Origin: Halomicrobium urmianum
GTDB taxonomy: Archaea; Halobacteriota; Halobacteria; Halobacteriales; Haloarculaceae
Length of the DNA: 64,000 nt
NCBI RefSeq assembly: GCF_020217425.1
Contig: NZ_CP084090.1
Coordinates: 1,798,001-1,862,000 of the forward strand
Direction of reading: 5' to 3'
The notes beneath the pieces are model-generated. The model was given only the letters and a program-made list of their open reading frames with translations, was not told the DNA's origin and ran no database searches. The translations under genes and the position numbers were made by a program. Below, one piece after another: positions 60,146 to 63,543 of this stretch (position 1 is its first letter; every line of letters begins with the position of its first letter).

Positions 60146-60842
60146 GGTCGTGTTTAGTTAGAAGCATTGTGCCAGCGAGCGAAACTCTGGAGCCAGTTTT
60201 CGGCTGTTTCTGGTTCGACGTGGCTGAAGCAATTCGAGAACGACGAGGTTCGGCGCTTGAGTTCTCGAAAAATCCGTTCGATAGTATTCCGATTTCCGTG
60301 GCGAGATATCTGAAATCGGAGGCCTGCTCGTTGCAATGCGGTTTGGAGGTGTTGGGCACCATCAACGAGAAATTCGGCTGTTTCGATGTCGTGTTTCTGC
60401 TGGAGTTCGCGGAGAAATATTTCGGTGAGAGCGGTGGTCGTCGTCGAAAAAAGCCGGATGTGCAGCAGCTCGTTTCTAGCAGGATCACCGGCGGCGTACA
60501 GCCAGAATTGCTGATCGTTGATCCGAATCACGGTTTCGTCGATCGCGATCTGATTCGGCGATTTCCCTGGTTCTGGCTGTAAATCGGCTTTCTGCACCCA
60601 ATCGTGGATCGCTTTCCGCGACCGATCGACACCCAGGTCCTCGAGCAAATCGACGGTATTCGACAGCGATAGCCCCGCAACGTGCGATCGAATACCCAGC
60701 ATCATCGCCGGCTCGGGTGTCCGCTCGCGCTCCACAAAACCCAAATCTATCCAGTCGCTACTGCCGTTGAGGCGGGCGATTTCTGCCATGAACCAGCAAG
60801 AAATTCTCCCGCCTCACTTTTCACGCTTAACTAAACACGACC
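60146..60842. mobile_element. Complete IS6-family insertion sequence (697 bases)
   Basis: Inverted ends GGTCGTGTTTAGTTA (60146-60160) and its perfect complement (60828-60842). Flanked by 8-base direct repeats ACCGCCTG at 60138-60145 and 60843-60850, the target duplication expected for IS6. One transposase gene on the minus strand fills most of it. Size, single gene, ends and duplication are all intact, so the insertion is recent. Confidence 0.95.
60154..60789 (-). CDS. IS6-family transposase
   Basis: 211 residues starting MAEIARLNGSSDWIDLGFVE. DDE catalytic set: first Asp in QIAIDETVIRIND near 82, second in EFLVDGAQHLQTAL near 142, Glu in RNTIERIFRELKRRTSSFSNC near 178 with the downstream Lys/Arg. 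N-terminal zinc finger is lacking, as in the haloarchaeal IS6 group (ISH14/ISH15-like). IS6 elements move by replicative transposition and form cointegrates. No frameshift or internal stop is seen; it should be active. The 3' end runs to 15 bases from the left inverted repeat. Confidence 0.93.
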   Translation of the reverse strand: MAEIARLNGSSDWIDLGFVERERTPEPAMMLGIRSHVAGLSLSNTVDLLEDLGVDRSRKAIHDWVQKADLQPEPGKSPNQIAIDETVIRINDQQFWLYAAGDPARNELLHIRLFSTTTTALTEIFLRELQQKHDIETAEFLVDGAQHLQTALQRAGLRFQISRHGNRNTIERIFRELKRRTSSFSNCFSHVEPETAENWLQSFARWHNASN

Positions 60843-60932: not shown

Positions 60933-61640
60933 ATGGACGACATAGAGGAGAGCGTCTCGGGTTTCAAGCGCCGCGGCGGCTGGGTCGACGTCGTTGAGCA
61001 CGGCGAGCGCATCGTGCAGGCACTGAAAGACATCGCCGACGAGGGCATCGAGGGCGTCGACGCGGAGGCGCTGGACGGCTTCGACGAGTGGCGGCCCAAG
61101 AGCCACGAGCGCCTCGACGAGGACGTCAACGAGAAGACCGCCGAGCAGGCCAGCGTCGACGAGGGGAAGGGCGAGCAGGCCGGCAAGGACCCCGACGACG
61201 ACCTCAAGACCGCCGGCGAGAAGCTGGCCGACTCCTACGAGCGCCTCGATGAACCCGACGAGGCCGTCGAGTCCTGGGGTGAGAGCCTCGACTACGTCGC
61301 TCGCGCGGCTGACTCGGCCGGCCGGAAGGCGCTGCGCGCCGTCGAGGACACCGTCTACCGGAACGTGATGACCCGCATCGCGCCCTACTACTTCGACAAC
61401 GACCTCATCAGCGCCAACCTCCAGCGCGTCCAGAGCGACGACCGTCCCGAGTACGTCTTCGAGGTCAACGTCAACGACGACGACCTCAAAGAGCGCGTCT
61501 CTAACAGACTGGCCGACTACGAGCAGTCCGTCGAGCGCTGGCACGTCAACACCGAGAAGGCCACCGAGGCCGCCGAAGCCGCCGAGGGCATCGACGTCGT
61601 GGAAGAGAGCGAGGAGGAGACAGATGCGAAAACGAACTAA
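60933..61640 (+). CDS. Acidic helical haloarchaeal protein (DUF5828-like)
   Basis: 235 residues starting MDDIEESVSGFKRRGGWVDV. Mostly helical and acidic: VEHGERIVQALKDIADEGIEGVDAEAL, then DEDVNEKTAEQASVDEGKGEQAGKDPDDDL (low complexity), ADSAGRKALRAVEDTVYRNVMTRIAPYYFDNDLISANLQR and a heptad-like tail. It matches my recollection of the haloarchaea-only family DUF5828, of unknown function. The stop codon lies in the first of three 58-base repeats. Its promoter region was separated from upstream sequence by the IS6 insertion 90 bases before its start. Confidence 0.8.
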   Translation: MDDIEESVSGFKRRGGWVDVVEHGERIVQALKDIADEGIEGVDAEALDGFDEWRPKSHERLDEDVNEKTAEQASVDEGKGEQAGKDPDDDLKTAGEKLADSYERLDEPDEAVESWGESLDYVARAADSAGRKALRAVEDTVYRNVMTRIAPYYFDNDLISANLQRVQSDDRPEYVFEVNVNDDDLKERVSNRLADYEQSVERWHVNTEKATEAAEAAEGIDVVEESEEETDAKTN

Positions 61641-61764
61641 GGCGGGTTTCATCCGGCCGGCGTCGGTTTCGCATCTGCAGGACGCTGAGACGAACTAAGG
61701 CGGGTTTCGTCCCGGCGGTATCGGTTCTACGTCAGCGAGACAGCAGGACGAACTGAGGCCGATT
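61621..61764. repeat. 58-base tandem repeats after the DUF5828 gene
   Basis: ACGAACTAAGGCGGGTTTC occurs at 61632-61650 and 61690-61708, and in the form ACGAACTGAGGCCGATT at 61748-61764; start-to-start distance is exactly 58 bases both times. The first unit also contains an 11-base inverted repeat CAGATGCGAAA/TTTCGCATCTG (61621-61631 and 61669-61679) that encloses the stop codon of the gene and could fold as a terminator. Confidence 0.8.
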
Positions 61765-61845
61765 CTGTCGAGGAGCGGCGTGTCGGCCCGAAACAAAGAA
61801 CGCAGAGAGGTCTTTTCAGGCCGAACCCCTACGGCGACCGTCCTG

Positions 61846-62688
61846 CTACTGGCGACGCTGTAGCTCCCGTTCCGCCGGGTTCGATGCGGTATTCTGGTGA
61901 CCGCTCTGCTGGTGTTGACTCTGCTGGGGGTGTTGACCGGTCTGATGATGCTGGCCTGTCTGGTGGTGCTGGCCCTGCTGCTGGTGGTGTTGGTTCTGGT
62001 CGCCGCCCATTCCGGGCACGGCGTCCTGCACGCGGTCGGTGATGCTTCCCCGGTCACCCTGCTGGCCGCGCTGGCTCTGATGGCCACCGTGCTGGTGCTG
62101 CTGGGTGTGCTGACCGGTCTGATGATGTTGACCCTGCTGGTGGCGCTGGCCGGTCTGCTGCTGGTGGTGCTGACCAGTCTGCTGCTGGTGGCCCTGCTGG
62201 CGCTGGTTCTGGTCGTCACCCAGTCCGGGTATCGCACCCTGAACCTGATCAGTGACGTTCTGCTGGCTGGTCTGGTGGTGTCGACCCTGCTGGTGCTGAC
62301 CAGTCTGGTGGTGTTGACCGGTCTGATGGCGTTGACTCTGCTGCTGGTGCTGACCTGTCAGGTGGTGCTGGTTGGACTGGCGGTTCTGCTGATGGCGATG
62401 GCCCTGCTGGTGATGCTGACCTGTCTGGTGGTGCTGGCCCTGCTGGTGATGATGGCTCTGCTGACCCGTCTGCTGGTGCTGGTTCTGGTCGCTTCCCAGT
62501 CCGGGAACGGCGTCCTCCACGCGCTCGGTGAGTTTCCCCTGATACTGCTGTCGATGCTGGTCCTGGCCGCGCTGGTGGTGCTGTCCCTGCCGACCGTGCT
62601 GGCCACGCTGCCACTGGTCGTCGTGCTGGGTCTGGCGGTTCTGGTGTTCGGTGCGTCGCTCTCGGCGGTGCTGGTTGCGTCGTGACAT
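61846..62688 (-). CDS. Histidine/glutamine-rich repeat protein, undescribed
   Basis: 280 residues starting MSRRNQHRRERRTEHQNRQT. Composition is extreme: long Q/H/G/T tracts with the recurrent unit GQHHQTG. Three ordered modules interrupt it: KLTERVEDAVPGLGSDQNQ at 52-70, NVTDQVQGAIPGLGDDQNQ at 144-162 and SITDRVQDAVPGMGGDQNQ at 215-233. Each looks like an amphipathic helix ending in PGxG. There is no signal peptide or membrane helix; the N-terminus is basic. The stretch uses both CAA/CAG and CAT/CAC, giving a lower GC than neighbours. Upstream on the same strand is a ferritin-like gene. Metal binding or condensate formation is possible; no family is recognised. Confidence 0.75.
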   Translation of the reverse strand: MSRRNQHRRERRTEHQNRQTQHDDQWQRGQHGRQGQHHQRGQDQHRQQYQGKLTERVEDAVPGLGSDQNQHQQTGQQSHHHQQGQHHQTGQHHQQGHRHQQNRQSNQHHLTGQHQQQSQRHQTGQHHQTGQHQQGRHHQTSQQNVTDQVQGAIPGLGDDQNQRQQGHQQQTGQHHQQQTGQRHQQGQHHQTGQHTQQHQHGGHQSQRGQQGDRGSITDRVQDAVPGMGGDQNQHHQQQGQHHQTGQHHQTGQHPQQSQHQQSGHQNTASNPAERELQRRQ

Positions 62689-62905
62689 GATAAGTGAGCG
62701 CTGTCGCCCGTCGGTTGATCGCTCCGGGCGGGTACGGAGCCCGTCTTGTCAATTGGATTGTGCGTGGAAAGCCAGGCCCCCTGCAGCTGACGGCTACTTA
62801 AATCGGGTCGCCGTGTGCTGGACTGTGGTCCGACGGTGGTTCCCGGCGGGCCTGTCGGCCGACGCTCCGACGGAGTGCCCCGCAACCGGAGGCGGGTCGG
62901 CGGCG

Positions 62906-63364
62906 CTACTCGTTGACGGGGTACTCCTTCTGGAAGCCGCGGAACTCGGTACGGTGTGCCTCCTCGTCGGCGAGGATGGTGACGGCGAGGTCCTCCGTGA
63001 CGGGGTCGTTGGACTCCTGGGCGGCCTCGACCAGCGAGCGGTAGGTCTCGATGGCGTCCTCCTCGGCGTCGAGCACGCCCTCGATGACCGAGAGCACGTC
63101 CGTGGAGTCCTCGGGCGGCTGGAGGGAGTCCTGGCTGGCGGAGAACTCCGCGGAGCCGGGGATGGTGGCATCTAGCTGCTTGAGGCGCTGGCCGATCTGC
63201 TCGGCGTGGCCGAGTTCCTCCTGGACGTCCGCCTGGAGGCTCTCCTTGATCTCCTCGGCGTGGACGCCGTCGAGCGTGATAGCGTTTGACTGGTAGTTCA
63301 TCACCGTCTCCAGTTCGTCGAAGTAGGCCTTGTGGAGGAGTTCGACGACGCGGTCTGAGGACAT
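62906..63364 (-). CDS. Ferritin-like (bacterioferritin-type) protein
   Basis: 152 residues from MSSDRVVELLHKAYFDELET. Di-iron pattern of a four-helix ferritin: E17 region KAYFDELETVMNYQ, then EELGHAEQIGQRL (ExxH) near 52, VLDAEEDAIETYRSLVEAA near 97 (Glu), and the last ExxH in ILADEEAHRTEFRGFQKEY near 138. These bind two iron atoms per subunit. It may store iron or protect DNA as Dps-like relatives do. TATA-like GTATAA is 29-34 bases upstream of the chosen ATG, excluding the longer reading to 63388. The His/Gln-rich gene lies downstream on the same strand, 217 bases after its stop. Confidence 0.9.
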   Translation of the reverse strand: MSSDRVVELLHKAYFDELETVMNYQSNAITLDGVHAEEIKESLQADVQEELGHAEQIGQRLKQLDATIPGSAEFSASQDSLQPPEDSTDVLSVIEGVLDAEEDAIETYRSLVEAAQESNDPVTEDLAVTILADEEAHRTEFRGFQKEYPVNE

Positions 63365-63392
63365 AGCGTACAACTGTTGGAATCCCAACTGG

Positions 63393-63398
63393 TTATAC
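63393..63398 (-). promoter_or_regulatory. TATA box for the ferritin-like gene
   Basis: GTATAA, 29-34 bases before the ATG at 63364, next to an imperfect inverted repeat CCAACTGG / CCAGTTGG-like sequence (63377-63391) that could be an operator for an iron or oxidative regulator. Confidence 0.5.
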
Positions 63399-63543
63399 GT
63401 GTTGCTGGCTGGTCCGCGTCGGCGTGGCGGACAGTGCGCGGACGGGCGCGGTGACCGCTATCCCCCCCCGTTTCGAGTGGAGACGGCGACGGACTGCCGC
63501 GTCCGCCGACCGGCACGCTAAAGCGGGGGCCCGGACAACCGGG

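Follow-up and report, generated by a model that had tools for sequence, protein, structure and literature searches.

What kind of protein does the open frame at 61846..62688 (minus strand) encode, and is that frame a gene at all? It lies in the window, the whole stretch of 64,000 nucleotides from Halomicrobium urmianum that was analyzed, and its product of 280 residues is unusual in composition. Gln (91 residues, 33%), His (45, 16%), and Gly (35, 13%) prevail, with 18 Thr, as the preliminary description had it, and also with 24 Arg; there is a single Lys and no Cys. A calculation from composition gives a pI of 11.3 and a GRAVY of −2.33. Of the window's 46 further long, coding-like ORFs, 39 have a pI of 4.05–5.6, and the lowest GRAVY is −0.85, so that the protein is indeed, as described before, a basic one amid an acidic proteome. 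Acidic protein surfaces are the haloarchaeal answer to high salt; a protein that is conserved, strongly basic, disordered, and rich in Q and R runs counter to that pattern. An AlphaFold model made with six aligned members has a mean pLDDT of 48.5 and no helix predicted at the modules described below; as far as prediction goes, the protein is a disordered chain.

The chain contains three near-identical modules of 18 residues with the form [LVI]T[DE]xVxxA[VI]PG[LM]GxDQNQ. Written as a regular expression, this form matches at residues 53–70 (LTERVEDAVPGLGSDQNQ, 62479..62532), 145–162 (VTDQVQGAIPGLGDDQNQ, 62203..62256), and 216–233 (ITDRVQDAVPGMGGDQNQ, 61990..62043), all on the minus strand, which confirms the regular modules noticed earlier; 20,000 shuffled versions of the protein give not a single match. 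The modules contain 15 of the 22 hydrophobic residues. The linkers on the same strand between modules 1 and 2 (62257..62478) and between modules 2 and 3 (62044..62202) are degenerate repeats of the hexapeptide TGQHHQ, with a period of 18 nt and 6 aa. At a lag of 6 residues, self-identity is 0.40; shuffles give 0.22, and none of 1000 reaches the observed value.

A DNA pattern for the module and then module profiles, a search that the preliminary description had proposed, led to five relatives, which belong to two further genera (g8 and g11) of the family, with carriers thus in 6 of 146 family genomes. The contig scan of the genomes took the DQNQ form only, and the g11 form was outside its reach. 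The three g8 relatives, from the MAGs QS_4_66_20, SW_7_65_23, and SW_10_66_29 (names that are probably those of the Atacama salt-crust study PMC5532433, a possible link to a dry habitat), have 319–371 residues and one module. The two g11 relatives have 279 and 300 residues and two modules; they are 47% identical, with both modules recognizable. Thus, the modules are kept while the linkers have diverged, as the first reading had suspected. Whole-protein comparison, blunted by low complexity, returned no true relative beyond the protein itself, and the gene is absent from the other six genomes of the same genus that were compared. The phylum sample gave no further carrier genome at E 1e-4, the class and phylum samples no additional relative that held up, and the viral contigs and plasmids searched no relative. 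Two kinds of candidates were rejected: a whole-protein match in G040, which comes from an acidic DEDQ-type repeat translated from the wrong strand, and profile matches of 20–22 bits in ~300-aa frames of many genomes, where each of the five frames inspected proved to be HisG (segment DAVKDVIPGMGGPT). Pfam and NCBIfam have no matching family, in agreement with the absence of a named family presumed before, and the sole match among solved structures is a chance TrmD segment (E 1.2). Literature searches for haloarchaeal proteins of the dehydrin-like, LEA, or His-rich disordered kind gave no paper. The protein, with one to three modules, is the product of a gene that had no name before and is carried by a few halophilic archaea in three genera.

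This low-complexity frame could be spurious, with the real gene on the antisense strand (frame 61897-62685, plus strand) or nowhere. Codon-position GC gives an ambiguous signal, the antisense frame stays open over a long stretch, and the Nei–Gojobori omega of the −2 frame is low in some pairs, all of which agree with a spurious frame. However, different genera have kept the sense module, and the relatives' indels stay in frame (in the g8 trio, they span 6 to 39 codons and have almost the same sequence on either side), so that the frameshifts taken in the preliminary description as the mark of a spurious frame do not appear. The sense omega is 0.19–0.53 in g8 and 0.28 in g11, the latter value being biased toward low numbers by the alignment of low-complexity sequence at the protein level, while the +2 and −1 frames exceed 1 in every pair. 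Because of that bias and of the low −2 values, the argument for a gene is carried by the g8 trio and by the cross-genus conservation of the module. The length of the antisense frame is a by-product of the Q/H/G-rich sense codons, since such a protein seldom uses codons that would stop it. On these comparisons, the frame is a real gene, as first claimed, with purifying selection in its relatives, and a spurious frame is highly improbable. The antisense product, of 262 aa and nearly all L/V/A/M/T (the g11 loci are alike in this), could be mistaken for a membrane protein by automatic annotation.

The same-strand neighbor is, as stated before, ferritin-like (62906..63364, minus strand, 152 aa from its ATG; PF00210, E 5.9e-22). 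Some 105 nt upstream of the ATG of the 280-aa gene, a TATA-like TTTAAGTAG (62794..62802, minus strand), assigned by the archaeal TATA consensus, suggests a putative promoter of its own; a sigma-70 promoter scan, uninformative for archaea, found none. In the genus, the order of genes is TAXI-type binding protein, DUF5828, and PHO4 transporter, and the slot between the last two is variable: nearly empty in two genomes (a gap of 0.2–0.4 kb in G003 and G005), filled by a GH18/CBM5_12/PKD chitinase-like gene in G001 and G002 (L095:3332-4717), or, over ~1.8 kb in this species (61641..63423), holding the 280-aa gene and the ferritin. Since DUF5828 and the phosphate transporter stand side by side in the genus, the two genes lie in a species-specific insertion. 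Across DUF5828 from the slot, and beside that gene, there is a partial IS240/IS6-type transposase frame (60154-60789; DDE_Tnp_IS240, 27.1 bits, just at the cut-off) in a stretch of lower GC (0.54–0.58); the transposase may have helped to bring in new genes. A 58-nt tandem repeat of 2.2 copies (ACGAACTAAGGCGGGTTTC...) at 61623-61759 overlaps the end of DUF5828 and continues past it. A related 58-nt repeat is present at the same place in G005 (L094:7779-7924), so that a repeat of fixed period is kept at the DUF5828 end.

In the relatives, the context is different. The gene follows a methyltransferase gene in g8 and is near biotin genes in g11, and no ferritin relative was found in the 3.4–12 kb around each of the five. 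In two same-genus genomes, the ferritin (80% identical) occurs at another place, adjoining a thermosome gene and without the 280-aa gene. It is therefore a chance neighbor or a co-passenger, not a conserved partner, and this weakens the earlier proposal of metal (Ni, Zn, or Fe) buffering by the His-rich linkers in connection with ferritin. The His content (16%, with 13 HH pairs), the nickel binding of the Q/H-rich Hpn-like protein (PMC8704837), and the metal binding of certain His-rich dehydrins (PMC8961592) would agree with buffering, but Cys is absent and His is down to 6–7% in three relatives that retain the module. Because His varies between 6.0% and 16.1% across the members, it is not at the core of the family, and metal buffering is improbable. 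The rest of the earlier interpretation (gene, modules, basic pI, no named family, amphipathic helices) is retained, and its scaffold idea is possible. The hexapeptide linkers, the hydrophobic clustering in the modules, the relatives in two genera, and the likeness to K-segments and phi-segments discussed below go beyond it.

The constants of the family are the module, Q/G/R-rich linkers with almost no Lys and no Cys, and a pI above 11. In all six members, Gln is at 22–33%, Gly at 12–20%, and Arg at 9–16%, with 0–2 Lys residues and no Cys; the pI is 11.2–11.8 and GRAVY −1.96 to −2.33. Such a composition, with the RG-rich stretches of the g8 members, would suit a basic condensate scaffold or nucleic-acid binder, whose Arg/Gln/His linkers would associate with RNA, with DNA, or among themselves while the modules serve as hydrophobic stickers; such a protein could function at molar salt despite the screening of charge. 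It matches no domain or family for nucleic-acid binding, however, and the single module of the g8 members gives little sticker valence. We regard this alternative as unlikely, yet as the main one, ahead of a docking adaptor and then metal buffering, all three being weaker than the reading preferred below.

The family-wide module consensus is GGI(T/A)(D/E)xV(K/R)xx(V/A)PG(M/L)G(S/G)DQ(N/H)Q, with V, P, G, D, and Q invariant over nine modules. The core is amphipathic: the hydrophobic moment is above the shuffle mean in 9/9 modules and in the top 2% of shuffles for the four g11 modules, which supports the suggestion, already made, that the modules are possible amphipathic helices. The conservation extends past the helix into G(S/G)DQ(N/H)Q in three genera despite the divergence of the linkers. 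An adaptor, with the 18–20 residues including DQ(N/H)Q as a short motif docking on one folded partner and the linkers as spacers, would account for this extension; against it are the lack of a conserved neighbor as candidate partner and the patchy distribution (6/146 genomes), and we find it less credible than the scaffold.

The most economical reading is dehydrin-like protection, because the plan is the same: amphipathic modules ending in Pro-Gly, G/T/H/Q linkers, and extreme hydrophilicity. We tentatively favor, with somewhat less than even confidence, a cytoplasmic disordered hydrophilin of dehydrin-like architecture that protects membranes or proteins at low water activity. On falling water activity, each module would adopt a short amphipathic helix against a surface, be it the archaeal membrane with its anionic lipids or a protein that has partly unfolded, and the Q/H/G/T/R-rich linkers would retain water and prevent surfaces from coming together. 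The Pro-Gly is followed by the DQ(N/H)Q tail, which K-segments lack and which probably makes a specific contact in addition. The composition of the six members, the match of the modules to 6–8 of 8 positions of the K-segment framework, the amphipathic core, and the predicted disorder make this the best explanation. Counting against it are the unmatched PF00257 and PROSITE pattern, the missing lysines, the AlphaFold model without a helix at the modules, and the rate at which seven-of-eight framework matches arise by chance; a module net charge of mostly 0 to −2 is poor for anionic membranes and counts against membrane binding. The conserved DQ(N/H)Q is a weak point as well, since it suggests a further specific contact.

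The comparison with known systems begins with the K-segment. It is defined by Lys at positions 2, 8, 10, and 12 (>90% conserved), Gly at 4, hydrophobic residues at 5, 9, and 13, acidic residues at 7 and 11, and Pro-Gly at 14–15 (PMC5415607), with the PROSITE pattern [KR]-[LIM]-K-[DE]-K-[LIM]-P-G (PMC1550403). Without gaps, the g8 module I-T-D-K-V-R-R-A-I-P-G can be aligned with the K-segment I-M-D-K-I-K-E-K-L-P-G. The nine modules agree with 6–8 of the 8 non-lysine positions, not with all eight in each copy, and have 0–1 of the 4 lysines; none matches the PROSITE pattern. PF00257 matched none of four members up to E 10 and had no match above cut-off in the 146 family genomes (those at E 3e-4 and above were rejected, being under the cut-off and several running through stops). 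Seven-of-eight framework matches occur by chance about twice per 23,700 residues, and HisG and TrmD contain look-alikes of the module, so that the likeness is one of plan and not proof of descent.

In water, dehydrin K-segments are disordered; on anionic membranes, they form amphipathic helices. The hydrophobic patch of the K-segment is considered to protect proteins that are denaturing, and in Lti30 the His pairs flanking the K-segments tune membrane binding (PMC8961592). Plant dehydrins protect drying cells and are induced by dehydration. With these dehydrins (LEA group 2, PF00257), especially the Kn type with His pairs such as Lti30, the haloarchaeal protein shares disorder, high hydrophilicity, absence of Cys, and short amphipathic modules ended by Pro-Gly and repeated within G/T/H/Q-rich linkers; in its His pairs and G/T/Q-rich linkers, it is reminiscent of the phi-segments of dehydrins. 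It differs by the near absence of lysines in the module, the additional conserved G(S/G)DQ(N/H)Q tail, far higher Gln and Arg, and no Y- or S-segment noticed. The Hpn-like protein of Helicobacter, which stores nickel, shares the dominance of Gln and His, with its His in near-contiguous runs (PMC8704837); in the haloarchaeal proteins, His is dispersed, varies between relatives, and forms no conserved stretch, and the chain carries helix-like modules. Hydrophilins are defined by at least 6% Gly and a high average hydrophilicity (PMC4190154), a class by composition and not by descent to which six of six members belong (Gly 12.5–20.4%, GRAVY −1.96 to −2.33). A further mark of hydrophilins is their accumulation under osmotic or water stress.

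The protein is thus a hydrophilin by composition and not a dehydrin by the dehydrin tests, and its likeness to dehydrins is probably convergent; we know of no hydrophilin that carries the haloarchaeal module. That it represents the first archaeal counterpart of dehydrins, a desiccation protectant evolved independently on the same plan (amphipathic helices ending in Pro-Gly within disordered G/T/H/Q linkers) that dropped the lysines for molar salt and added a second conserved contact, is a bolder and more doubtful proposition. The family also makes accessible to experiment a disordered protein whose task has to be done at molar salt, with charge-driven binding and condensation screened. If it protects cells on drying, archaea are able to evolve the dehydrin plan, and the features that matter are the helix and the Pro-Gly, not lysine.
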